From Leptolyngbya sp. 'hensonii' (GTDB taxonomy: Bacteria > Cyanobacteriota > Cyanobacteriia > GCF-001939115): a DNA stretch of 64,000 bases. Position 1 is the first letter of the stretch, and the number at the start of each line of letters is the position of its first letter. Below, piece after piece: positions 7,507 through 48,620 of the stretch. Both the position numbers and the translations under genes were made by a program. The stretch is taken from positions 134,869 through 198,868 of the forward strand of contig NZ_MQTZ01000017.1 in assembly GCF_001939115.1 (NCBI RefSeq). Reading direction: 5' to 3'. A model generated the notes under the pieces. It made no database searches. It was not told the origin of the DNA and saw only the letters and a program-made list of their open reading frames with translations.

Positions 7507-8367
7507 ATGGCTTTCGGACCAGCGTCACGTTTAGGGGTGAGTTTATTTGATGAAACTCCTCCAGTTGAGTGGGTACCCGGTCGCTCAGACGAAGAGGCCG
7601 AATCAATCATTCGCGCCGTCTATAGACAAGTCTTGGGTAATGCCTACGTGATGGAAAGTGAGCGGCTCACCGTGCCTGAGTCGCAATTCAAGCGGGGCGA
7701 ATTCAGCGTTCGCGAATTTGTCCGGGCAGTGGCCAAGTCTGATCTCTATCGCTCCCGCTTTTTCACCAGTTGCGCTCGTTATCGGGCGATCGAACTGAAC
7801 TTCAGACACCTGTTGGGTCGGTCCCCACTGGACTTGGAAGAAATGCGGGTCCACAGCACGATTCTGGATACTCAGGGATTTGATGCAGAAATCGACTCCT
7901 ATATCGATAGTGATGAGTACCAGAACACCTTTGGCGAGAGCATTGTTCCCTACATCCGGGGCTACAAAACCGAAGCCTGCCAGAGCATGGTTCAATTTAC
8001 CCACACCTTCCAACTGGTGCGGGGTGCTGCCAGCAGCAGCCTGAAGGGGGATCTGGCCGGTAAGAGCCCCAAGCTCAATTCCCTCGTCATTCAGTCCATC
8101 CCGACCCCAGTGATCTCGCCTGCCGGAGATGGGGCAACCTTCCGCAACCCACCCGTTGTTTCCCGGACCCGCTTGGGTGTGGGTGCTGGTGAAGGCGGTA
8201 AGGTCTATCGGATTGAGGTCACGGGTTACCGGGCGAAGTCCTTCAATAACATCTCCAAGTTCCGCCGTTCCAACCAGGTTTTCCTGGTGCCGTTCGATAA
8301 ACTCTCCCAAGAGTACCAGAGAATCCACCAGCAAGGTGGTGTCATCGCCAGCATTACCCTCGTCTAG
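7507..8367 (+). CDS. cpeC: Phycoerythrin-associated rod linker CpeC
   Basis: The 286-residue protein opens with MAFGPASRLGVSLFDETPP, followed by a phycobilisome linker domain (Pfam PF00427 type, about 20-150) with IIRAVYRQVLGNAYVMESER and AIELNFRHLLGR. It ends with a CpcD-like domain (about 232-285; YRIEVTGYRAK ... KLSQEYQRIHQQGGVIASITLV). This layout and the N-terminus match CpeC of cpeCDE operons, the linker joining phycoerythrin hexamers in the rod. It has a close paralogue on the other strand at 46634-47494. It is the first gene of the operon and is followed by an unusually long 278-bp spacer. Confidence 0.93.
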   Translation: MAFGPASRLGVSLFDETPPVEWVPGRSDEEAESIIRAVYRQVLGNAYVMESERLTVPESQFKRGEFSVREFVRAVAKSDLYRSRFFTSCARYRAIELNFRHLLGRSPLDLEEMRVHSTILDTQGFDAEIDSYIDSDEYQNTFGESIVPYIRGYKTEACQSMVQFTHTFQLVRGAASSSLKGDLAGKSPKLNSLVIQSIPTPVISPAGDGATFRNPPVVSRTRLGVGAGEGGKVYRIEVTGYRAKSFNNISKFRRSNQVFLVPFDKLSQEYQRIHQQGGVIASITLV

Positions 8368-8645: not shown

Positions 8646-9395
8646 ATGGCATCCTCTATTGGTCTTGAGTTATGGCCCGCTAGCAGTTTGGAAGAAGTTC
8701 AGACCATTATTCGGGCAGTTTATAAGCAAGTTTTAGGCAACCCCCACGTCATGGATAGTGAGCGTCTGGTGGCTGCAGAGTCCCAACTGTGCGATCGCTC
8801 CATTACCGTGCGTGAGTTTGTCCGCATCGTAGCCAAGTCTGATTTCTATCGGTCTCGCTATTTCGAGTCCTGTGCTCCCTATCGCTTTGTGGAACTGAAC
8901 TTCCTGCACTTGCTAGGACGGGCTCCCCAGGATCAGCGGGAAGTGTCTGAGCACATTGTTCGCTGCGTTGCTGAAGGCTACGAGGCAGAGATCGATTCTT
9001 ACATCGATAGCGTCGAGTACCAGGCTGCTTTCGGTGAGAACGTCGTTCCTTACTATCGGGGCAGAGCCAGCGAAGCCAACCCCAAACAGGTGGGTTACAA
9101 TCGCATGTTTGTCCTCGATCGAGGTGCAGCACAAATCGACAGTGCCGTGAAATCTTCCCAGTTGGTCTACGCTGTAGCCAGCAACTCGGCCAACACCATT
9201 AAGCCCTCTTCGGCCACGGTGATTGGTTCAGGGACGGAAAAGCGTTTCAAGATTGTGGTGGCTGGCTCCAAATTCGACAGCCCTCGTCGCATCAGCTCAA
9301 CCGAGTACATCGTTCCTGCCAGTAAAATGACTCCGCAAATTCAACGGATTAATCGGACCTCTGGCAAGATTGTCAGCATTACTGAAATTGCTTAG
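8646..9395 (+). CDS. cpeD: Phycoerythrin-associated rod linker CpeD
   Basis: The 249-residue protein starts MASSIGLELWPASSLEEVQT. It has a PBS linker domain (about 12-140, with FVELNFLHLLGRAPQDQREVSEHIV) and a C-terminal CpcD-like domain (about 196-249; FKIVVAGSKFDSPRR ... MTPQIQRINRTSGKIVSITEIA). The start is fixed by TTAGGAGATCACATTTCA before the ATG. Naming as cpeD rests on gene order and my recollection of the family; the cpeD/cpeE split should be checked. It has a paralogue at 45832. A terminator-like hairpin lies just after the stop codon. Confidence 0.87.
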   Translation: MASSIGLELWPASSLEEVQTIIRAVYKQVLGNPHVMDSERLVAAESQLCDRSITVREFVRIVAKSDFYRSRYFESCAPYRFVELNFLHLLGRAPQDQREVSEHIVRCVAEGYEAEIDSYIDSVEYQAAFGENVVPYYRGRASEANPKQVGYNRMFVLDRGAAQIDSAVKSSQLVYAVASNSANTIKPSSATVIGSGTEKRFKIVVAGSKFDSPRRISSTEYIVPASKMTPQIQRINRTSGKIVSITEIA

Positions 9396-9401
9396 TGGGG
9401 G

Positions 9402-9429
9402 TGGGGTGGAGGTTCTCCACCCCATTTTT
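9402..9429 (+). terminator. Terminator-like hairpin inside the cpe operon (cpeD-cpeE)
   Basis: A 10-bp perfect stem (TGGGGTGGAG / CTCCACCCCA) with a 3-nt loop is followed by TTTTTA, a standard Rho-independent terminator shape. It lies 6 bp after the cpeD stop and 129 bp before cpeE. Because cpeE continues in the same direction, this probably acts as a partial terminator that sets linker stoichiometry, unless cpeE has its own promoter. Confidence 0.7.
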
Positions 9430-9557: not shown

Positions 9558-10316
9558 ATGGCACTTTGGGTAGAAACAGCTTCGGTTGAATTGCGCCCCA
9601 ATTCAACCGAAGACGATTTACAAGCAGTGATTCGGGCCGCATACCGCCAGGTTCTGGGCAATGCCCATGTCATGGATAGCCAACGGCTCACCAGTGCAGA
9701 GTCCATGCTCCGGAATGGGGATATCACCGTCAGAGGGTTCGTCAGAGCGATCGCTCAGTCGGATCTCTATCGGACCCGCTTTTTTGAAAGCTCTTCTCCC
9801 TACCGCTTCATTGAGCTGAACTTCAAACACCTGCTGGGTCGGGCTCCTCAGGACCAGGCTGAGATCTCTGAGCATGTGCAACTTTACAACACCCAGGGTT
9901 ACGAGGCTGAGATTAATTCCTACCTCGACAGCGATGAGTATCAGGCCAACTTTGGTGAAAACACCGTTCCCTCCTACCAGGGTAGTCAGACTCAAACTGG
10001 GATCAAAAATGTTGGATTTAATCGTACATTTGCTCTGGTACGGGGTTTTGCGGCCAACGACATCGGCACCTCTGCCAAGCTGATCAGCGATATTGCTGGC
10101 AATCTCCCAACCAAAATCGCTGCACCTGCAGGGGGTTCAGGCACCTACAGCAACACAGGCAAGCGTTTCCGGGTCACGGTTACGAAGGCCAGTTATGGTC
10201 CTCGGGTCACCCAGAGTGCTGCCACTTTTGAAGTGGGCTACAACCAACTGTCCCAGAAAATTCAGAATATCCAGAAAACTGGGGGCAAAATTCTCAGCAT
10301 TACTGAAGTAGCGTAG
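9558..10316 (+). CDS. cpeE: Phycoerythrin-associated rod linker CpeE
   Basis: The 252-residue protein starts MALWVETASVELRPNSTEDD. It has a PBS linker domain (about 14-145; IRAAYRQVLGNAHVMDSQR, FIELNFKHLLGRAPQDQAEI) and a CpcD-like domain (about 198-252; KRFRVTVTKASYGPRV ... LSQKIQNIQKTGGKILSITEVA). It is preceded by TTTTAGGAGAACTCAGTT. Three tandem phycoerythrin linkers in this order match cpeCDE and suggest up to three stacked phycoerythrin hexamers per rod. No copy of this linker occurs in the second cluster at 44-47 kb. Confidence 0.87.
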   Translation: MALWVETASVELRPNSTEDDLQAVIRAAYRQVLGNAHVMDSQRLTSAESMLRNGDITVRGFVRAIAQSDLYRTRFFESSSPYRFIELNFKHLLGRAPQDQAEISEHVQLYNTQGYEAEINSYLDSDEYQANFGENTVPSYQGSQTQTGIKNVGFNRTFALVRGFAANDIGTSAKLISDIAGNLPTKIAAPAGGSGTYSNTGKRFRVTVTKASYGPRVTQSAATFEVGYNQLSQKIQNIQKTGGKILSITEVA

Positions 10317-10401: not shown

Positions 10402-11037
10402 ATGGCGGCTACTGGATATGACGATCTCATACTGGTGGTTGAAGTCGCTGGTTTACAACAGCCAGCCTTACTGCCAGTGAGCAATTTCACATTCAAAGTT
10501 CCTTATCGTTCGCTCGCTCGCACCCTTGAGTCCATTCGTCGCAGGCAGGGGAAAGTCGTTAACATCACTGTTTTGTCTTCCTCGATTGCCGAGCCTGTTC
10601 CTGCTCCTGACCTGTCAGGCGCTCAGCCTTTTTCTACAGCTCCAGAGAGGGCAACCATCCTATCGGCTGGACCTTCGATCAGTGAAGTCCCCCCACCTAC
10701 GACGGAAAACAATGTCCCACAACCTTCAGAGGTAGCAACTCTGGGAGCCTCGGTTTCAGCATCAGAACTCACACTTGAGTCTGAACCTATCCAGTCGTCT
10801 CCACCCGGATCCTCTTCTGAGGCGGAAGACGTTGCCTCCTCTGGGGCTGACAACCTGATTGCTACGCCACCTCCCTCGGATCACTCCGAAGGGGAGGTCA
10901 GTGACACAACCCCGGCATCGACAACTGCTGAGCCCCCGGCATTAAGCCAGTTCCTGGGAAGGTTTGGCCTGAATGAATTTTTTGCCAAATTCAAACCCAG
11001 TAAGGACAGCGATTCCGACGAAAAACCAGATTCCTGA
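10402..11037 (+). CDS. CpcD-domain protein with long disordered tail; tailed rod-cap linker candidate
   Basis: The 211-residue protein has a CpcD-like domain at about 8-60 (LILVVEVAGLQQ, VPYRSLARTLESIRRRQGKVVNITVL), the fold of the small rod-terminating linker CpcD. Residues 61-180 are low complexity, rich in Ser, Pro, Ala, Thr and Glu, acidic, and lack Cys and Trp. The protein ends in a predicted amphipathic segment (LSQFLGRFGLNEFFAKFKP, 181-199) and a charged tail. It lies between cpeE and cpeS, and its TGA overlaps the cpeS ATG by 1 bp, so it is part of the operon. CpcD proteins are normally about 70-90 residues. A cap on phycoerythrin rods that tethers another partner is my inference; I do not know this protein from described cpeCDESTR operons. 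Confidence 0.85.
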   Translation: MAATGYDDLILVVEVAGLQQPALLPVSNFTFKVPYRSLARTLESIRRRQGKVVNITVLSSSIAEPVPAPDLSGAQPFSTAPERATILSAGPSISEVPPPTTENNVPQPSEVATLGASVSASELTLESEPIQSSPPGSSSEAEDVASSGADNLIATPPPSDHSEGEVSDTTPASTTAEPPALSQFLGRFGLNEFFAKFKPSKDSDSDEKPDS

Positions 11038-11573
11038 TGGACATAATCAACTTTGTTGAACGATCGATTGGGCGCTGGCGATCGCAACGCAGCGCCCATC
11101 ATCTCGCTTTCCGCCATTTTGAAGCGGTTGAATCGGTCATTGATATCGTAGCCCTGGCCCTGGATGACCCGGCAGTACTTGACCTCTGCCATGCCTACAA
11201 TGTAGACCCAGCAACAGCCGTCTCTCCCTTTCGGATGAGTTGGGAAGGGCAATCTGACTGGGATGAAAGTGCGGCCATGCAGGGAACCTGTGTCTTGATT
11301 CCCATTCCCGATCCGAACTCTGCCGCCAATCGTGGCAAGCTGCTTCGCGATCAGGGATACGCCGAGGAGATCGCCGCTGTGGGGGACTACCATCTCACAG
11401 CGGATGGCACCTTTGTTTTGGTGACAGCCTACGATCGAGCGGCAGCTGAAGAGAAAATCTGGTTTGTGAATCCCAATGTCCGTTGCCGGGTCTCTCTGAT
11501 CAAAACCAGTGCAGGCACCGGGGTTGTCACTGCATCATTTTCTTCCGAAATTCGACAGGAGATCAAAAACTGA
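11037..11573 (+). CDS. cpeS: CpeS-type phycoerythrobilin lyase
   Basis: The 178-residue protein starts with IINFVERSIGRWRSQRSAHHL, the CpcS/CpeS signature, followed by barrel strands including GQSDWDESAAMQGTCVLIPIPD, GKLLRDQGYAEE and IWFVNPNVRCRVSLI. CpeS attaches phycoerythrobilin at Cys82/84-type positions of phycoerythrin. Its start overlaps the stop of the upstream CpcD-domain gene (TGATG), which implies coupled translation. It precedes cpeT by 125 bp. The context makes CpeS more likely than CpcS. Confidence 0.92.
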   Translation: MDIINFVERSIGRWRSQRSAHHLAFRHFEAVESVIDIVALALDDPAVLDLCHAYNVDPATAVSPFRMSWEGQSDWDESAAMQGTCVLIPIPDPNSAANRGKLLRDQGYAEEIAAVGDYHLTADGTFVLVTAYDRAAAEEKIWFVNPNVRCRVSLIKTSAGTGVVTASFSSEIRQEIKN

Positions 11574-11698: not shown

Positions 11699-12322
11699 AT
11701 GATGACTACTCCGTCCGATCCTGCTGAAGTCAAATCGAGTGATTTATTCACCCTGGCCCATTGGATGGCAGGGGGATTTAGCAACTATAAACAGGCTTTT
11801 GAAAACCCTAAAAATTACGCCCATATCCACGTTTTCTTTCGTCCGTTACCCTTTGAGTTTTTCTCTGGAATCGGCTTCTATTCAGAACAGGTTTATGACT
11901 ACGATCTGTGGAGTCCCTATCGCCAGGGCGTCCATCGTCTGGTGGACCAGGGGGATCAGATTTACATAGAAAACTATGGCCTGAAAGAGGCTTTTCTCTA
12001 TGCCGGTGCTGCCCGTGAATTAGAGATTTTAAACACCCTTACGATCGACAAGATTGAGCGACGACACCACTGCGCCATGGTCTTCAAGCGGGAGGGAGAT
12101 CTATTTCGGGGCATGGTAGAGCCCGGTAATCTTTGCTTAATTGAACGTCACAATTGTCAGACCTATCTGGTTAGCGATGTGGAAATCACAGAAACAACCT
12201 GGGTCAGCCTAGATAAAGGTATGGATGTCAATACCCACGAACAGGTATGGGGATCAACCTTTGGACCGTTGCGGTTTGAAAAACGGGAGAATTTTGCCCA
12301 TGAAGTCCCCAATATCTTATAA
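11699..12322 (+). CDS. cpeT: CpeT/CpcT-family chromophore lyase
   Basis: The 207-residue protein has the family pattern LAHWMAGGFSNYKQAFENP near the start, then HVFFRPLPFEFFSGIGFYSEQVYDYD and YRQGVHRLVDQGDQIYIENY. CpcT-type members attach bilin to Cys153-type sites of beta subunits; CpeT in phycoerythrin operons is related and acts on phycoerythrin beta. Either ATG (11699 or 11702) could be used. It overlaps cpeR by 23 bp. Confidence 0.92.
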   Translation: MMTTPSDPAEVKSSDLFTLAHWMAGGFSNYKQAFENPKNYAHIHVFFRPLPFEFFSGIGFYSEQVYDYDLWSPYRQGVHRLVDQGDQIYIENYGLKEAFLYAGAARELEILNTLTIDKIERRHHCAMVFKREGDLFRGMVEPGNLCLIERHNCQTYLVSDVEITETTWVSLDKGMDVNTHEQVWGSTFGPLRFEKRENFAHEVPNIL

Positions 12323-12665
12323 AGCTCCCTCAATCGATCTGGAACTGACGGAAGCCAAAATGCTGCCACCTGAGGCTCAAAAAAAGATGCAGTGCTGGAT
12401 TCGGAGCCGTCATTTAATTTGTTCCGGCAACTTCTTTGTGTTTGAGACCGTGGACTACAGTGCGGTTGATCGTTTTTCTGATTGTGTCACAGCTCTAGGC
12501 GGAACAGTGATTTCAGTCGATCCCGTAGACAAAATTTGGATGGGTGGTCATCGCCAGGTGCTCCTATATCGGGCTAAAGCCAGTCTCCATACCCCCTGTC
12601 ATAGTCTGAAGCAATACTGGCTGAAATATGGTAGCTTTCGAACCCGATTTGACGGGCAGGATTAA
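12300..12665 (+). CDS. cpeR: CpeR, activator of phycoerythrin gene expression (copy 1)
   Basis: ATG at 12300 gives 121 residues. The diagnostic CpeR core runs from MLPPEAQKKMQCWIRSRHL through CSGNFFVFETVDYSA, ISVDPVDKIWMGGHRQV and KASLHTPCHSLKQYW. CpeR is needed for cpeBA expression in green light and has no classical DNA-binding domain; the fold is reported to be PP2C-like or uncertain. It overlaps the end of cpeT by 23 bp. A longer reading starting at 12225 would overlap cpeT more and adds unconserved residues. A second copy sits at 45294. Confidence 0.93.
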   Translation: MKSPISYKAPSIDLELTEAKMLPPEAQKKMQCWIRSRHLICSGNFFVFETVDYSAVDRFSDCVTALGGTVISVDPVDKIWMGGHRQVLLYRAKASLHTPCHSLKQYWLKYGSFRTRFDGQD

Positions 12666-12866: not shown

Positions 12867-13907
12867 ATGCCTACTACATTTGTGAATCCCGTTGTGAATC
12901 CTGCAGCGAATTTGGGCGTTAGTTTATTTGATGAAACAGACCCCGTTTATTTGTGGGAATCTGCTTCAGAAGCAGATATTGAAATAGTCATTCGAGCCGT
13001 TTACCGACAGATCCTGGGCAATGCCCACATCATGGAAAGTGAGCGTCTGGCTGTTCCCGAATCCCAACTCAGACAGCGAGAATTCACCGTCCGGGAATTT
13101 GTCCGCCAGGTTGCCAAGTCAGAGTTATACCGATCTCGTTTTTTTGACCCCTGCTCCCGCTATCGGGCGATCGAGCTCAATTTCAAACATTTACTCGGTC
13201 GGGCTCCCCATCACTTTGAAGAGATGCGTCATCACAGCGCCATCCTCGATCAGGCAGGGTTTGCAGCCGATATCGATTCCTATATCGACAGTGATGAGTA
13301 TCAGACTGCTTTTGGTGAGAACATTGTGCCCTATTGCCGGGGTTACAAAACCCAGGCCGGACAACCGATGCTGGAGTTCACCAATATGCTGCAACTGCTG
13401 GGGGGAGCCTGCAGTAGCGATAAAGACCTGACCTCTGGCAATAAGGCTCGCCTGACCCGAGCGCTGATTCTCAACCGGGCCTATGGGATTGAGCCAAGTC
13501 GAAGTGGCAACGATATCCTGTCGGAAGTCTTCGGCAGCGGAGCCCAACCGAGTACAACCTTACCTTTCTCCCAGCCCAGTTCTGGGGCTGAATATGCCCT
13601 GCAACAAAAATATCAAGAGCAGGCAACCTTGGTGGCAGCCCTGCAAAGCCAACTGGCTGAGCTGCGTCCCTTTGCCAGCATGGGGTCTGCCATCATCCGC
13701 CAGGATCAATTTGCCGGTGATACCTCGATAGCCCCCCTGACTTCTTCTGGTATCCGGGTCGCACCAGCAGGCAGCACCCTGCAGCGTCAGGTCGAAGAAC
13801 AGGAAGCCCTGATTGCCAGTCTGCAAGAGCAGTTGGCGGAAGCCCGATCGCTGGCAGCGATCGGAGAAGCTCGTTTGAATAAGTGGCGACGACGGACCTT
13901 CTTTTAG
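12867..13907 (+). CDS. Phycobilisome rod linker with coiled-coil repeat C-terminus
   Basis: The 346-residue protein has a PBS linker domain (about 35-165; VIRAVYRQILGNAHIMESERL, AIELNFKHLLGRAPHHFEEM) closest to CpeC, including LGVSLFDETDPV. After a variable region (200-245) it has two similar segments, about 249-276 (YQEQATLVAALQSQLAEL) and 309-336 (VEEQEALIASLQEQLAEA), each followed by a short A/G/S stretch. The tail is basic (LNKWRRRTFF). There is no CpcD domain. The repeats predict a coiled coil, so the free end of the rod may bind something other than another hexamer, such as the core or a membrane. It lies 201 bp after cpeR with its own AGGAGA site and may have its own promoter. Confidence 0.88.
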   Translation: MPTTFVNPVVNPAANLGVSLFDETDPVYLWESASEADIEIVIRAVYRQILGNAHIMESERLAVPESQLRQREFTVREFVRQVAKSELYRSRFFDPCSRYRAIELNFKHLLGRAPHHFEEMRHHSAILDQAGFAADIDSYIDSDEYQTAFGENIVPYCRGYKTQAGQPMLEFTNMLQLLGGACSSDKDLTSGNKARLTRALILNRAYGIEPSRSGNDILSEVFGSGAQPSTTLPFSQPSSGAEYALQQKYQEQATLVAALQSQLAELRPFASMGSAIIRQDQFAGDTSIAPLTSSGIRVAPAGSTLQRQVEEQEALIASLQEQLAEARSLAAIGEARLNKWRRRTFF

Positions 13908-41597: not shown

Positions 41598-44261
41598 TTA
41601 CCGTAAGGGGAGGGTAACCAGGCAGGTTGTTCCCCGACCCACTTCGCTCATCACCTGAATCGTGCCTTGGTGCAAATCCACACACTTCTTGACCACGACC
41701 AAGCCCAAACCAGTCCCAGGAATGGTCCGAACATTCTTGCCTCGATAAAAGGGTTCAAACAACCGCTTCTGATCATCAATGGGAATACCAATCCCCTGAT
41801 CGATAACCTGAAGCAAGACCTGAGCGGGCTCAAACTCCAGGGTGAGACCAATCATCCCTCCCTGGGGAGAATATTTGATGGCATTAGACAGTAAATTAGA
41901 CAGAATTGATCTCAAAAGCTTACTATCCAGATAAGCCGGTGTCGATGAGCCTTGACAGGTAACTGTAAGACTGTACTGCCCCCCAGCACTGAGTTGCATC
42001 TCTTCAACAAACTGGCGACAATACCTTTCCACATCCAGGAGTTGGGGATTAAATTCTAGTTTCCCCGTCTCAGCACGATTGATGGTCAAGATATCATCCA
42101 GCAATTGCACCATATTCCTGACAGAATCCTGAATTCTATGAAGATTTCGGAGTCGCTTCTCGGAGTGATTCCATTCGTCCTGACAGGTTTCCAAAAGCTG
42201 TGCTGCAGCCAGAGCAGTACTGAGAGGAGTCCGAAATTCATGGGAAGCCATGGAGAAGAACCGTGTCTTTAAAGCACTCAGTTCTTTTTCCCGTTCCAGG
42301 GCTAATCTGACTTCATCCAGCCGCTTGCGCTCCGTAATATCCCGAGCAGTGACAATGATCCGGAGAATAGCCGTGCTATCTGTATAAGCCTGGGCGATCG
42401 CTTCCATCATTCGCCAGGAACTATCTTGATGGCGATATCGGCTCTCAATCGGACAGGTCAAATGCGTTTGCTGTCCCCTTTGTCTCAGGCATGCCTGCAT
42501 CAGGCTGTTTGTGGTCACCCAATCTTCAGGGTGAACCAGTTCCAGCAAAGTACGCCCGACCAGAGTTGCAGCGGGGTAGCCCAGCACTTTCTCTGCTGAT
42601 GGGCTGACATAATGAATGGTGCCCTCCGGGTCAAGAATCATGATGATATCCAGCGCGTTTTCAATCAGCGATCGAAACCGCTCTTCACTTTGACGCAGAG
42701 CTTGCTCCACCTGCTTCCGCCCTGTTGTATCTCGCTGCACGGCGATCCAGTGGGTGTAGCGGCCCTGTTTATCGGCAACTGGGACAATACTAAATTCATT
42801 CCAAAACTCCGTCCCATCTTTACGGTAGTTAATCACCTCTACTGTAATCGGTTCCCAATGCGTCAGGGCTGTGCGTACCTGCTGCAGTATAACACCATCA
42901 GTTTTAGGTCCCTGCAATAACCGGGGAGTCTTGCCCAGAACCTCCTCCGGTTGGTAACCCGTGATGCGAGTAAACGCCTCATTCACATAGATAATCCGGG
43001 GTCCAGGTTCCGAAATAGGTTCTGCTTCCGTGATGATCACGGCATCATTCGTGTTGACTACGACAGATTGCAACAGGCGCACCTGTTCAGCTTGCCGCTT
43101 TTGCTCAGTGATGTCAGCAATCACAGCGACAATGCCTCGAATTTGACCATCACTGTCCGGGAGAGGCGCAGCCGAGAAGCTGATATCAATGGGTATTCCA
43201 TCTCGACGATGACAGCGTAATTCCATCCGGGTGTAAGTCTTTCCCTGCAGCACACTGGTTTGCAGGGCAGTCTGATCCGCCTGGGGATCATCCAAACAGA
43301 TGGGATTGGGACAATCCATCACCTCTACCTCAGTCCACCCAAACATGCGCTCAGCTGCCGGATTCCAGATCTTCACCCGCCCCTCTAGGTCCAGCATAAA
43401 GATAGCCCGGGGAGATGCCTGAACCAGGGCTTGCAGGGTCTCATTGGTGTGGCGTAGAGCCACTTCGGTCCGTTGCCGCTCTAAAATTTCCTCCTGCAGG
43501 GAATGATTGGCTGTTGCCAGTTCTGCAGTCCGATCCTGTACCCGCAGTTCCAGACCTGCATTGAGTTGCTGCAGCTGGTTATAGAGTTCAGACTGTTGGA
43601 TGGCAATAGCAACCTGGGTTGCCAGTTGTTGCATCAACTCTAGCTCCCAGATTTCCCACTTGCGGGGACGGTTACACTGATGGGCAATTAACAGCCCCCA
43701 GAGATAGGGAGCAGCAGATCTTGAATCTAGAGAATAGCCTGCTGGCTGATGGCGATTTTCCTGGATAATAGGAACAACCAATTTTGCTTTCACCCCAAAC
43801 TGCCGGACAAACTCTGCCAGGCAAGGCTGGACATCAGCTTGTTCGACATTCATAATGGCGCGGGTTTTTCCCAGGGAGTAAGCCTGATGATACTCCACAG
43901 GAAACACCTCCTCTGGGAAGGTTTGCCCTAAGACCCGAGGATAGGGGGGTAAGACGGTTTCATAAATGGCAGAACCAGTGCCATCATCCCAGAGGCGATA
44001 CAGCAGAACCCGATCGGCACCCAGAAACTGCTGAACTTCCTCGACTGTGGTCTTCAACACTTCATCCAGATCCAGAGACTGGCGAATGTGCTGGGCGATC
44101 TGATGGATCAAGCGTTCTCGATCTGTTTGGCGCAACAGCAGCACCTCAGCCCGTCGCCGTCGCAGGACTTCCTGGCTGAAATACCAGCAAACAATCGCCA
44201 GGACTAGAACGCCAAAGCCCATGGTCATGAAAACTACAGTTGTCGCACTCAAGCCAAACAT
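41598..44261 (-). CDS. ccaS: CcaS-like green/red cyanobacteriochrome histidine kinase
   Basis: I start at the ATG 44259-44261 (MFGLSATTVVFM), giving 887 residues. The upstream start at 44369 lies inside a hairpin, and the later start puts the bilin Cys at residue 147, near Cys141 of Synechocystis CcaS. The order is one membrane helix (about 3-28), a GAF domain with Cys147 in VQPCLAEFVRQFGVKAKLVVP, three PAS domains (about 277-390, 395-520, 525-650), HisKA with SHEFRTPL (His674) and HATPase_c with GTGLGL. The middle PAS resembles LOV but has GKTPRLLQ, without the photoactive Cys. CcaS phosphorylates CcaR in green light. It lies downstream of cpcL and 3.7 kb from ccaR. Confidence 0.88.
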   Translation of the reverse strand: MFGLSATTVVFMTMGFGVLVLAIVCWYFSQEVLRRRRAEVLLLRQTDRERLIHQIAQHIRQSLDLDEVLKTTVEEVQQFLGADRVLLYRLWDDGTGSAIYETVLPPYPRVLGQTFPEEVFPVEYHQAYSLGKTRAIMNVEQADVQPCLAEFVRQFGVKAKLVVPIIQENRHQPAGYSLDSRSAAPYLWGLLIAHQCNRPRKWEIWELELMQQLATQVAIAIQQSELYNQLQQLNAGLELRVQDRTAELATANHSLQEEILERQRTEVALRHTNETLQALVQASPRAIFMLDLEGRVKIWNPAAERMFGWTEVEVMDCPNPICLDDPQADQTALQTSVLQGKTYTRMELRCHRRDGIPIDISFSAAPLPDSDGQIRGIVAVIADITEQKRQAEQVRLLQSVVVNTNDAVIITEAEPISEPGPRIIYVNEAFTRITGYQPEEVLGKTPRLLQGPKTDGVILQQVRTALTHWEPITVEVINYRKDGTEFWNEFSIVPVADKQGRYTHWIAVQRDTTGRKQVEQALRQSEERFRSLIENALDIIMILDPEGTIHYVSPSAEKVLGYPAATLVGRTLLELVHPEDWVTTNSLMQACLRQRGQQTHLTCPIESRYRHQDSSWRMMEAIAQAYTDSTAILRIIVTARDITERKRLDEVRLALEREKELSALKTRFFSMASHEFRTPLSTALAAAQLLETCQDEWNHSEKRLRNLHRIQDSVRNMVQLLDDILTINRAETGKLEFNPQLLDVERYCRQFVEEMQLSAGGQYSLTVTCQGSSTPAYLDSKLLRSILSNLLSNAIKYSPQGGMIGLTLEFEPAQVLLQVIDQGIGIPIDDQKRLFEPFYRGKNVRTIPGTGLGLVVVKKCVDLHQGTIQVMSEVGRGTTCLVTLPLR

Positions 44262-44357
44262 TGATACAAGAGTGAGCCCATGATGGATTAAACCACTTGG
44301 ATGAGTCAAACCCTGAGGGGGCAGAGCGATGCCATGCCCCTTCTTAAACCACGCAGC

Positions 44358-44384
44358 TTTACAGCCCATGCAATGGGCTGTAAA
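44358..44384 (-). other. Hairpin between cpcL and ccaS
   Basis: TTTACAGCCCAT and ATGGGCTGTAAA form a 12-bp perfect stem with a 3-nt loop, 13 bp after the cpcL stop and about 97 bp before the ccaS start. On the minus strand it is not followed by a T tract. It may lower read-through from the linker genes into the kinase. Confidence 0.6.
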
Positions 44385-44396
44385 AATTCACGGCCC

Positions 44397-45137
44397 CTAG
44401 AACCCAATCAGGATGGATAGAAACATAATCACAAGGATTGCAACCCCAAGCCCAATCGTACCCTGCCCAATTTTCTGGAGCAGTTGGGGCGGATTCTTTT
44501 GCCAGTCCCAACGATAGTAATCCAGACGAGCAGCGCCTTTCCTACCCATCAGAATTGGCTTGGGCAATTTATCCCGATAATCAGTGCCGTAACGAGCCAT
44601 CCGGGCAAAAGGCAGCTCACCTTGAGTCCGTTGGGGGAGAATCCGTCGGCGTTGATAGGGAACCGTGTTATCTCCAAAGTTGTCCAGGTATTCTTCACTA
44701 CTCAGCAAGGCATCAATAAAACTCTGTAGTCCCTTGGTAGCCAGAACAATCGACCAGGCGAGCTTTTCCTGATTGTTATAAACGCTGCGACCCAGAATTC
44801 GCTGAATGCAAATCTCAACGCAACGGTAGTTATTATTGCTCTCATAAACCAGTCGTCGGAAGGAATCAGAAGTGGCCAGTCCTCGAATAAAGTCCTTAAC
44901 GGTGATTTGCCCCACTCGCAGTTGGGACTCCAAAAAACGCTGACGATGGTAGGCCAGCATCTGTTGCTCATTATAAATCTGGCGGTAAGCTGCCTGGATC
45001 AAGACATCCATATCCACAGGAGACAGGAGATTACTGGTGGTATAAATTCTGGGTTGTTCATCACCGGGTACTTCAAACCCCTCCACTCGATGGTTACGAG
45101 ATAAAGGTTCGTATTCTAAGAGAGGAATCGACATCAC
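44397..45137 (-). CDS. cpcL: CpcL (CpcG2-type) membrane-anchored rod linker
   Basis: The 246-residue protein has a CpcG-type linker domain (about 35-185; VLIQAAYRQIYNEQQMLAYHRQ, VEICIQRILGRSVYNNQEKLAWSI) and ends in a single hydrophobic helix (about 222-245, IGLGVAILVIMFLSILIGF). That terminal helix distinguishes CpcL from core-binding CpcG1. CpcL builds rods without a core that pass energy mainly to photosystem I. It is a known CcaS/CcaR target in other strains. It lies 156 bp after cpeR copy 2. Confidence 0.93.
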   Translation of the reverse strand: MMSIPLLEYEPLSRNHRVEGFEVPGDEQPRIYTTSNLLSPVDMDVLIQAAYRQIYNEQQMLAYHRQRFLESQLRVGQITVKDFIRGLATSDSFRRLVYESNNNYRCVEICIQRILGRSVYNNQEKLAWSIVLATKGLQSFIDALLSSEEYLDNFGDNTVPYQRRRILPQRTQGELPFARMARYGTDYRDKLPKPILMGRKGAARLDYYRWDWQKNPPQLLQKIGQGTIGLGVAILVIMFLSILIGF

Positions 45138-45293
45138 AGTACTCCCAAGCTTAAAAGATGAATTACATTCTTAAGGAACGGTCTGGATGCAGTTGACCAA
45201 ACTGCAATGGGTTAAAGAGAATTGAGTCATCACTCATCTTTCTCTACAACACTGAAGCAACATGAACTGCCTTCTGATTCAGGTGTCCATGGA

Positions 45294-45644
45294 TTAAACT
45301 CGTTGATCAAATCTCGTCCGGAAACTACCGTGTTTGATCCAATACTGTTTCAAGTCATGATGAGGGGTATGCAAGCTGGCTCTGGCATGATATACAATCA
45401 CCTGGCGACGATCGCTCATCCAAATCTTGCCAACTGGATCCACAGAAATCACGCTGCCTCCCAAGACTGAAATACAGTGACTGAATCGCTCCAGAGCTGA
45501 ATAATCTACTGTTTCAAAGACAAAGAAGTTCCCTGAGCAAATTACATGGCGACTTCGAATCCAGGACTGAATCTTCTTTTGAGCAGCAGGTGGCAGCATT
45601 TCCAGGGTGGGAAGCATCAGATGACTTCGAACCGAGCATTTCAT
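45294..45644 (-). CDS. cpeR: CpeR, phycoerythrin gene activator (copy 2)
   Basis: ATG at 45644 gives 116 residues; the start could lie a few codons either way, and MLPPAAQKKIQSWIRSRHV marks the conserved core. The segments CSGNFFVFETVDYSA, ISVDPVGKIWMSDRRQV and ASLHTPHHDLKQYWI match copy 1 at 12300 but with many substitutions. This is a diverged paralogue rather than a recent duplicate. It is located between a CpeD-like linker and cpcL. In N. punctiforme a cpeR is part of the CcaR-controlled operon, which fits. Confidence 0.92.
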   Translation of the reverse strand: MKCSVRSHLMLPTLEMLPPAAQKKIQSWIRSRHVICSGNFFVFETVDYSALERFSHCISVLGGSVISVDPVGKIWMSDRRQVIVYHARASLHTPHHDLKQYWIKHGSFRTRFDQRV

Positions 45645-45831
45645 ACGTAGAATCACGTCTTGCGATAGAGAACCTGCCCTAACTGAACAGCTAGAGCAGG
45701 AAAGGGAGTAGGAGGAATCGTAGGGAGATTTTAGAGATCATCATCTGCCAGGATCACAGGGACGGCATCATCGTTATGTCACTGGAAAAACCAGATATCA
45801 GATCATCAGAGTGACTCAGATCAAGTCTGGA

Positions 45832-46590
45832 TTAGGTCACTTCAGTAATACTGACGATCGTTCCAGATGTCCGATTAATGCGCTGAATTTGCGGGGTCAT
45901 ATTGTCCCCAGAAACCAGGTATGTTGTAGTACTGATCCGCCGGGGACTGTCAAACCTGGAGCCCCGCACAAGAATCTTAAATTTCTTCTTGCTGGCCTCT
46001 CCTGAACCACCTAAATTAGTGCTAGCTGGTGCAATTCTGTTGCTGCTGTTAGTCGCAATCGCATACACCAATTGAGAAGACTTGACGGCACTATTTACTT
46101 GAGAGTAGCCCCGATCCAGTGCAAACATTCGGTTGTAAGTGATCTGGCTTTGACCCACTGCAGTTTTTGCACCTTGATTGTAGGGGACGATATGCTCACC
46201 AAACTTAGTCTGGTACTCGTCACTATCAAGGTACGAATCGATTTCTGCATCGTATCCTTCTTCAATGCAGCGCACGATATGCTCTGAAACCTCAGCCTGG
46301 GACTGGGGAGGCCGTCCTAAAAAGTGCATGAAATTCAATTCCACGAAGCGATAGGGAGCGCAGGTCTCAAAATATCGGGAACGGTAAAAATCAGATTTCC
46401 CAACAGCCCGCACAAATTCACGCACAGAAATGCTGCGATCGCTTAACTGGGATTCAGCAGCGACCTGCCGTTCACTCTCCATCACATGCGGATTACCTAG
46501 CACTTGTCGATAAACAGCTCGAATGACAGCCTGCACCTCTACCGAAGAGCTATCTGGCCAAAGTTCTGATGAATTAATTTCAATGCTCAT
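45832..46590 (-). CDS. cpeD: CpeD-like phycoerythrin rod linker (copy 2)
   Basis: The 252-residue protein is clearly paralogous to the linker at 8646: FVELNFMHFLGRPPQSQAEVSEHIVRCIEEGYDAEIDSYLDSDEYQ in the linker domain and FKILVRGSRFDSPRRISTT ... MTPQIQRINRTSGTIVSITEV in the CpcD-like domain. It lacks recognisable frame damage. It starts 43 bp after the cpeC paralogue. Its role would be rods built under CcaS/CcaR control. Confidence 0.87.
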   Translation of the reverse strand: MSIEINSSELWPDSSSVEVQAVIRAVYRQVLGNPHVMESERQVAAESQLSDRSISVREFVRAVGKSDFYRSRYFETCAPYRFVELNFMHFLGRPPQSQAEVSEHIVRCIEEGYDAEIDSYLDSDEYQTKFGEHIVPYNQGAKTAVGQSQITYNRMFALDRGYSQVNSAVKSSQLVYAIATNSSNRIAPASTNLGGSGEASKKKFKILVRGSRFDSPRRISTTTYLVSGDNMTPQIQRINRTSGTIVSITEVT

Positions 46591-46633
46591 GATTTACTTC
46601 CTTAATTGCATGGGTTAATTCAACGCTGTTCAT

Positions 46634-47494
46634 TCACACAGGCGTAATACTGGCAATCACTCCCCCCGCTTGATGGATCTTTTGGTAGGTTGCTGAAAGC
46701 TGGTTGAAGGGCACCAGATAGATCTGGTTACTGAAGCGAAAACGGGAGACCGGCCTGGTCTTGCTAGCACGGTAGCCCGTCGCCTCCACCCGGTACACTT
46801 TGCCTTGCTCATCTGCCCCGGTACCCAGGCGGGTCCGGGCACTACCCAAGGGGTTACGGAATGCAGATCCTGGGCTGATCGGTGAAACTACAGCCGTGGG
46901 CACAGACTGGATCAGCAAGCTGTTCAGGCGAGGAGCCTTCCCGGCCAAATTACCCTTCAAACTGCTACTTGAGGCTCCCCGTACTAGTTCAAAAGTATGG
47001 GTGAACTGCACCATACTCTGGCAAGCCTCTGTCTTATAGCCCCGGATATAGGGCACAATATTTTCTCCAAAATGGGTTTGATACTCATCGCTATTGAGGT
47101 AAGAATCAATCTCAGCTCCAAAACCTCGCGTATCGAGAATCATGCTGTGGGAGCGCATTTCTTCCAGATTAAGGGGAGGGCGGCCCAGCAGGTGGCGAAA
47201 GTTTAATTCGATCGCCCGGTAACGAGCACAACTGGTAAAGAATCGAGAATGATAGAGGTCCGACTTGGCTACTGCTCTCACAAACTCACGGACACTGAGT
47301 TCAACTCGCTTAAACTGAGACTCAGGAACCGTCAAGCGTTCACTGTCCATCACATAGGCATTGCCTAAAACTTGCCGATAGACTGCTCGAATGATCTGCT
47401 CCCGCTCACCATCCGAACTACCAGGCACCCACTCCACCGGGGCAGTTTCTTCAAATAGGCTAACTCCCAAACGGGAGGCTGGTCCAAAAGCCAT
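46634..47494 (-). CDS. cpeC: CpeC-like phycoerythrin rod linker (copy 2)
   Basis: The 286-residue protein matches the first CpeC almost end to end and has the same length: MAFGPASRLGVSLFEETAPVEWVPG, AIELNFRHLLGRPPLNLEEMRSH and the CpcD-like end YLVPFNQLSATYQKIHQAGGVIASITPV. It is the first gene of the minus-strand set cpeC-cpeD-cpeR-cpcL-ccaS. The CcaR G-box lies about 210 bp upstream of its start. Confidence 0.92.
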   Translation of the reverse strand: MAFGPASRLGVSLFEETAPVEWVPGSSDGEREQIIRAVYRQVLGNAYVMDSERLTVPESQFKRVELSVREFVRAVAKSDLYHSRFFTSCARYRAIELNFRHLLGRPPLNLEEMRSHSMILDTRGFGAEIDSYLNSDEYQTHFGENIVPYIRGYKTEACQSMVQFTHTFELVRGASSSSLKGNLAGKAPRLNSLLIQSVPTAVVSPISPGSAFRNPLGSARTRLGTGADEQGKVYRVEATGYRASKTRPVSRFRFSNQIYLVPFNQLSATYQKIHQAGGVIASITPV

Positions 47495-47693
47495 GAATCC
47501 CTATCTCCAAATAGATACAACACCCAGTCCAGGAGTATCCCGACAGCCGAGGATCCAGTGGGGCCATAAAACAGCCACCTCCATGCAAGGAAGTGCATCA
47601 ACCCCAATCCCATGCTCTGACGATCGTTCCAACCCGATGCAGGGAGTTCTGAAATTTCAGAATCCCATAGACACCGTAAGGAAACTGATCAGA

Positions 47694-47715
47694 AAACCGG
47701 AAAAAAATCGGAAAG
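47694..47715 (-). promoter_or_regulatory. CcaR G-box upstream of the second cpeC
   Basis: Bases 47705-47715 read CTTTCCGATTT on the minus strand, an exact match to the published CcaR G-box CTTTNCNATTT. The adjacent 11 bp (47694-47704) give TTTTCCGGTTT, a copy with two mismatches, so the two form a direct repeat with 11-bp period. The site lies between divergent cpeC and ccaR, oriented towards cpeC. The promoter itself is not clear; TATGGG near 47660-47675 is a weak candidate. Confidence 0.8.
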
Positions 47716-47942
47716 AATGAGTGGAATCAATAAATCTTGAAATTCTGCAATATTTGTTCTCAAAACTTTTGCAGGAAAAGGGATTTCCCAGGTTAGCCAT
47801 TCCCGATAAAACAGAAATTTGGGGGGCAAATTCCCATAGAATTGTGGTGATGAGCAATCCTCGCTGCTGGGTAAATAGGGGCATAGGAAGGAGGAGCGTT
47901 CAATCCAACAAATTGCTTTTATCTTGCCTCACTGCCGAATTT

Positions 47943-48620
47943 ATGAGGATTTTACTGATCGAAGATGATTTGAGACTGGCGGAAACGTTAGCAGAAGCAC
48001 TCACTGACCAGCGTTACGTCGTTGATCTCGTAACAGACGGGGAAACCGGGTGGCATCAGGTGAAGACCATGGACTATGACCTGTTGTTGCTGGATGTGAT
48101 GTTACCTGAACTGGATGGGATTAGTCTCTGTCATCGGCTGCGATCGCACGGTTATAACCTCCCGATTCTGATTCTGACCGCCTGTGATACCATCAGCGAT
48201 GAAATCACAGGTTTAGATGTGGGTGCTGATGACTATGTAGTGAAGCCTGTTGATTTGCAGAAGCTCTTTGCTCGAATTCGAGCTTTGCTCCGTCGTGGTA
48301 ACGCCACAACCCTGCCGATCCTGGAATGGGGAGAGTTACGCCTCAATCCCAGTACTTACGAAGTCAGCTATAACCATACTCCCATCCATCTCACGCCCAA
48401 AGAATATGCCCTTTTAGAACTGCTGTTACGCAATGGTCGGCGTGTCTTAAGCCGCAGTGTCATCATTGAGCACGTCTGGCCATCAGAAGCGTCTCCAGAA
48501 GAACATACCGTCAAAGTTCATATCCGAGGATTACGGCAAAAGCTAAAGGCTGCAGGGGCTGCAGAAGACTTGATTGAAACTGTCCACAGCATGGGTTATC
48601 GCCTGAACCAACTGGGTTAA
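47943..48620 (+). CDS. ccaR: CcaR-like OmpR-type response regulator
   Basis: I start at ATG 47943, giving 225 residues (MRILLIEDDLRLAETLAEAL); an in-frame GTG at 47721 would add 74 non-conserved residues and cross the G-box. The receiver has its acceptor Asp in LLLLDVMLPELDG. The winged helix (about 125-222) includes LTPKEYALLELLLRNGRRV and EHTVKVHIRGLRQKL. CcaR is about 234 residues in Synechocystis. Divergence from cpeC, the nearby ccaS and the G-box all support CcaR. It is also similar to the first 225 residues of the RcaC-like protein. Confidence 0.88.
   Translation: MRILLIEDDLRLAETLAEALTDQRYVVDLVTDGETGWHQVKTMDYDLLLLDVMLPELDGISLCHRLRSHGYNLPILILTACDTISDEITGLDVGADDYVVKPVDLQKLFARIRALLRRGNATTLPILEWGELRLNPSTYEVSYNHTPIHLTPKEYALLELLLRNGRRVLSRSVIIEHVWPSEASPEEHTVKVHIRGLRQKLKAAGAAEDLIETVHSMGYRLNQLG

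Follow-up and report, generated by a model that had tools for sequence, protein, structure and literature searches.

What does a gene with a CpcD-like domain do between cpeE and cpeS, in a phycoerythrin operon whose published gene names (cpeCDESTR) do not include it? The gene was noticed in a stretch of 64,000 nucleotides from Leptolyngbya sp. 'hensonii', here called the window, and encodes a protein with a long tail. The original prediction was that it is an insertion absent from the known cpe operons, and that the protein could cap phycoerythrin rods and recruit a photosystem, membrane or regulator through a helix at its end. The features discussed below are collected in Table 1.

Table 1. 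Features of the window: the phycoerythrin operon with the tailed CpcD gene, and the likely green-light acclimation module
Feature	Position	Strand	Basis or remark
cpeC	7507..8367	+	PF00427 + CpcD
cpeD	8646..9395	+	PF00427 + CpcD
cpeE, likely docking partner of the cap (inferred)	9558..10316	+	PF00427 + CpcD
Tailed CpcD-domain gene, 211 aa	10402..11037	+	ORF, ATG start; relatives at same place
CpcD domain, residues 12-56	10435..10569	+	Pfam PF01383, 27.5 bits; CpcD fold
Acidic disordered spacer, residues 63-173	10588..10920	+	Composition, low pLDDT; unalignable between relatives
C-terminal motif and helical segment, residues 174-199	10921..10998	+	Profile match 174-188; low-confidence helices
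TGATG stop-start overlap with cpeS	11035..11039	+	Sequence; TGATG/TAATG junction in 9/30 cap-bearing operons
cpeS, bilin lyase	11037..11573	+	PF09367, 201.8 bits
cpeT	11699..12322	+	PF06206, 229.6 bits
cpeR-like gene	12225..12665	+	ORF; kept after cpeT in relatives; name from position
CcaS-like sensor kinase (GAF, PAS, HisKA)	41598-44369	-	
CpcL-like linker	44397-45137	-	Hydrophobic C terminus
Second cpeD and cpeC	45832-47494	-	
Exact CcaR-box sequence CTTTCCGATTT	47705-47715	-	211 bases upstream of cpeC2
Response regulator	ends 48620	+	

The tailed CpcD gene is real, and it is coupled to its downstream neighbour as had been predicted: the ATG of cpeS at 11037 uses the last base of the stop codon TGA (11035-11037), so that the two genes overlap by one base. 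Further downstream the cpeR-like reading frame matched no family model and is named by position only; its first codons overlap cpeT, and translation may in truth begin further downstream. Two other elements of this region may be mentioned. A terminator-like hairpin lies between cpeD and cpeE (9398-9423) and could set the relative amounts of the linkers, and cpeR is followed by a CpcG-like linker (12867-13907) in which the C-terminal part consists of repeated coiled-coil-like segments with no CpcD domain. A linker of this kind is kept beside cpeR in several relatives.

The CpcD-like domain was predicted at about residues 8-60. Pfam places PF01383 at residues 12-56 with 27.5 bits (E 4e-6), a narrow pass over the gathering cut-off of 27, and the same protein scored 30.2 bits in the genome search. 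CpcD is the single domain found by Pfam; there is no match to PF00427 and no FAD or NADP domain, and the FNR model of NCBIfam gives 11.4 against a cut-off of 600. AlphaFold, working from a shallow alignment, builds a strand-strand-helix-strand domain at residues 10-58 with a pLDDT of about 90 over most of it. The top Foldseek matches to this model are the phycobilisome CpcD domains of CpcC, CpcD and FNR, with E-values of 1.5e-3 and above and none below 0.001, probably because the model is mostly disordered. A profile built from nine relatives matches the CpcD domains of solved phycobilisomes with E-values down to 6e-7. Both the CpcD domain and its fold can be taken as shown.

This does not make the protein CpcD itself. 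The NCBIfam model for the canonical CpcD equivalog (NF058509) gives it 13.8 bits against a cut-off of 80. We also made a tree, which with its 53 usable columns is rough; some sequences entered in it as canonical CpcD are fragments of CpcC. The CpcD-only proteins of phycoerythrin operons (for short, caps), canonical CpcD and the CpcD domains of FNR form one group (99/97), apart from the terminal CpcD domains of CpeC, CpeD and CpeE. Within this group canonical CpcD and FNR have a clade of their own (97/99) and the caps are outside it. An ApcC row with a very long branch falls among the caps, a placement to which we give no weight. From the NF058509 score and the tree position we call the protein a phycoerythrin-associated CpcD paralogue. 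Replacement of canonical CpcD or of FNR-L by the new protein is ruled out in the window genome, which has both, the canonical CpcD being an 88 aa protein encoded elsewhere. A short gene resembling canonical CpcD is kept in 7 of the 9 genomes with the type of tail called A below; one has FNR-L only, and one, which is fragmented, has neither at the threshold used. The phycoerythrin cap is therefore usually an addition.

Is the gene peculiar to this organism? We searched 390 genomes of the class with the window protein, the window genome being the sole representative of its order among them. The best matches outside the window, from nine genomes (E up to 1.3e-8), are without exception found in the interval from cpeE (or cpeD) to cpeS. 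The initial relatives thus came from a search with the protein itself, and the frequency of the gene was determined from a census anchored on cpeS, independent of the cap. A phycoerythrin-type CpeS (E up to about 1e-60) identified 87 genomes for it, and 84 of the cpeS regions were read; a few contigs end near cpeS and are of little use, and some genomes are fragmented. A CpcD-only gene is present upstream of cpeS in 30 of these 84 operons, window included, distributed over ten family groups, and in nine of the 30 it overlaps cpeS by one base in a TGATG or TAATG. In most of the remaining operons cpeS follows cpeE or cpeD after about 10-350 bases, with no cap gene in between. Since two thirds of the operons lack a cap, it is not indispensable for building phycoerythrin rods. 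A search of the named genomes gave two loci only, and the phage and plasmid collections contained no match to the tailed protein.

A cap gene after cpeE is an old arrangement. In four Gloeobacter genomes a gene for a multidomain linker is followed by cpeC, cpeD and cpeE and then by genes for CpcD proteins of 76 aa and 70 aa. The genus is known from the 70-aa protein, which is identical to chain N2 of the bundle-shaped phycobilisome in PDB 9k9w. Among the known systems compared, the 76-aa protein (L171 7762-7992) is the closest by place, straight after cpeE, and is 42% identical over the domain; it differs in having almost no tail and in not adjoining cpeS. No solved structure was found for it, as there is for its 70-aa neighbour. 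A unique insertion is therefore ruled out, and of the original claims this is the one that failed. The question whether such a fusion is already described and common has a divided answer: as a family the gene is common, and we found no account of a CpcD gene at this position, or of tailed caps, in the open-licence literature, so one may exist elsewhere.

Two further observations belong to these operons. Two cap genes per operon are found in L046, L057, L059 and L063, and in family group f12 a second copy comes after cpeS (L057 8082-8492, L059 96-479, L063 7875-8237). Wherever the contig extends far enough this copy is seen to precede cpeT, and its end is strongly basic, e.g. SRLTGRKGRRSKKTS. 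The cpe operons of L057 (1829-4783) and L063 (1629-4583) also encode linkers of 984 aa, the one in L057 with four PF00427 matches; they probably correspond to the CpeC-like multidomain proteins of which a paper speaks in Leptolyngbya (PMC11976284).

What sets the window protein apart is its tail; the long tail with a terminal helix is the only lineage-restricted feature. It is as acidic and as rich in Ser, Pro and Thr as predicted: in residues 63-180 S, P, T, E, A and D account for 73%, with 18 acidic residues and 1 basic one. AlphaFold gives no structure for residues 60-180. The amphipathic helix predicted at 181-199 is weak in the window protein taken alone, where its amphipathicity does not differ significantly from shuffled sequences (p 0.15) and AlphaFold has two short helices (181-187 and 191-195) with a pLDDT of about 53. 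The part of the claim which stands comes from the relatives. The window protein and eight others (type A; family groups f1, f12, f15, f21 and f24) share a motif resembling LPxLvRxLLxKL, and the spacer that precedes it resists alignment. In a leave-one-out test a profile from the other members was run against each tail and against 2000 shuffled versions. In seven of the nine tails the real score was never equalled by a shuffle; five shuffles reached it for the window motif (residues 174-188) and eight for L052. The match is at or near the C terminus in every type A tail, the motif was not found in the other caps tested, and other reading frames of these loci gave no convincing match. Amphipathicity is significant (p < 0.035) in seven of the eight relatives; L051 was not scored because of prolines and shortness. 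In the relative L139 AlphaFold makes one continuous helix of 17 residues (138-154, pLDDT roughly 57-69).

Three kinds of tail can be distinguished among the caps, with membership of the short-tailed group and of type B judged by eye and from the tree. Many members are short, with about 3-60 residues after the domain. Type B, which forms a group in the tree (100/97), has tails reaching about 330 residues; in many of them an acidic middle part is followed by a basic end. Seven type B tails (L074, L082, L086, L091, L092, L094, L079; 64-330 residues) terminate in a sequence like GFNKPK or GFKP, and several of the seven carry repeated acidic stretches. The third kind is the acidic spacer with the conserved motif. 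Most tailed caps have a negative spacer and neutral to positive last 25 residues; in the window protein an acidic end comes after the terminal helix. Because type B has basic ends in place of the type A helix, a single shared partner is unlikely. A tandem acidic EPGI repeat was seen in the tail of an Oscillatoria (Prado101) cap gene, L140 5992-6528, which ends at the contig edge.

CpcD caps and cargo tethered by a CpcD domain are already known, and the window protein may be compared with both. It shares with CpcD, the phycocyanin rod cap, the fold, the single domain and the larger tree group, and departs from it in its place in a phycoerythrin operon, its long tail and its position outside the CpcD/FNR clade. 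FNR-L (PetH) likewise has a CpcD domain and a flexible unconserved linker carrying something at the rod tip; there it is a reductase, here only a short helix, and the clade is different. In solved phycobilisomes CpcD and the CpcD domain of FNR both sit at the outer tip of the rod, bound to the last rod linker by its PF00427 domain, and the long stretch that joins the FNR domains is not seen (PMC10322944). FNR detaches once its CpcD domain is removed, and shortening the flexible region impairs its function (PMC9319322). In CpcL, the rod linker that reaches the membrane, a C-terminal helix likewise serves an outside contact, but CpcL has a PF00427 domain and a hydrophobic membrane helix, and the tailed protein has neither. 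Small capping linkers of Gloeobacter have been detected by mass spectrometry, and of these only ApcC was placed (PMC12525769).

By analogy with FNR, the N-terminal CpcD domain of the window protein would dock on the last Cpe linker (CpeE or CpeD) at its PF00427 domain, and would thereby cap the outer phycoerythrin hexamer and stop the rod from growing further. The long acidic tail would project from the rod tip as a disordered arm presenting the short amphipathic helix, and the helix would hold a partner, be it an adjacent phycobilisome, the surface of a membrane or some other protein. For a tip that is cationic and amphipathic, possible contacts are the acidic phycobiliproteins of an adjacent phycobilisome, lipid surfaces and proteins. 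The role as a cap is well supported by inference and in our judgement very probable. Among the points in its favour, the caps group with the domains of CpcD and FNR, which act at rod tips, and not with those of CpeC, CpeD and CpeE. That the tail has a real binding role we find rather likely, and tethering is plausible by analogy. The combined reading, a phycoerythrin-associated CpcD paralogue that caps the rod and tethers its tip to a partner, is the one we favour, with some reserve; it agrees with the cap-plus-recruitment role first proposed. Against it speak the many operons that lack a cap, the weak helix of the window protein with its acidic end, and the different ends of type B tails.

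Other readings of the same data have to be weighed against this. The protein could be a plain phycoerythrin rod cap with the tail as a freely evolving bristle which keeps rods apart or soluble and whose helix has no dedicated partner. Many family members are nearly tailless, with 3-50 residues, and the spacers cannot be aligned between relatives, as such a bristle would have it, but the C-terminal motif is kept in five family groups when the spacer is not, which a free bristle does not predict, and we regard this reading as rather unlikely. Less probable still is a docking protein that is not a structural cap, occupies few rod tips and serves to deliver an enzyme, a lyase or a regulator as client to the phycoerythrin rod. 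FNR-L is a precedent for this, and the overlap with cpeS hints at a link to bilin attachment; the overlap may, however, only set expression, and it is common for members to be short and to lack a client-binding tail.

A decaying or spurious gene with a functionless tail would explain a domain score near the cut-off and a codon usage that does not favour this reading frame over the others. We consider it most improbable, since 211 codons are open, the gene has the same operon place in relatives, and both its ends are conserved in comparison with other family groups. It is from this conservation of both ends, and not from codon usage, that we take the frame to be coding.

Elsewhere in the window there is a likely green-light acclimation module (41598-48620; Table 1). 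Green-light control of the cap operon through a CcaR box was considered and rejected: the sole exact match to CTTTCCGATTT in the window is the one at 47705, and one match is expected by chance.

When solved structures were searched with CpeE, none of the chains returned bore the name of a cyanobacterial CpeC, CpeD or CpeE. A more general hypothesis can be offered only tentatively: the phycoerythrin rods of many cyanobacteria might end in a dedicated cap whose disordered arm is charge-segregated and whose gripping tip is lineage-specific. Such caps would link outer rod ends to neighbouring phycobilisomes, to the facing membrane or to a client and so anchor the antenna by its outer ends. With an old, dedicated cap gene there is a concrete candidate for what ends a phycoerythrin rod, and from the tailed versions one would expect the antenna to be anchored, or a partner to be recruited, at its outer face.
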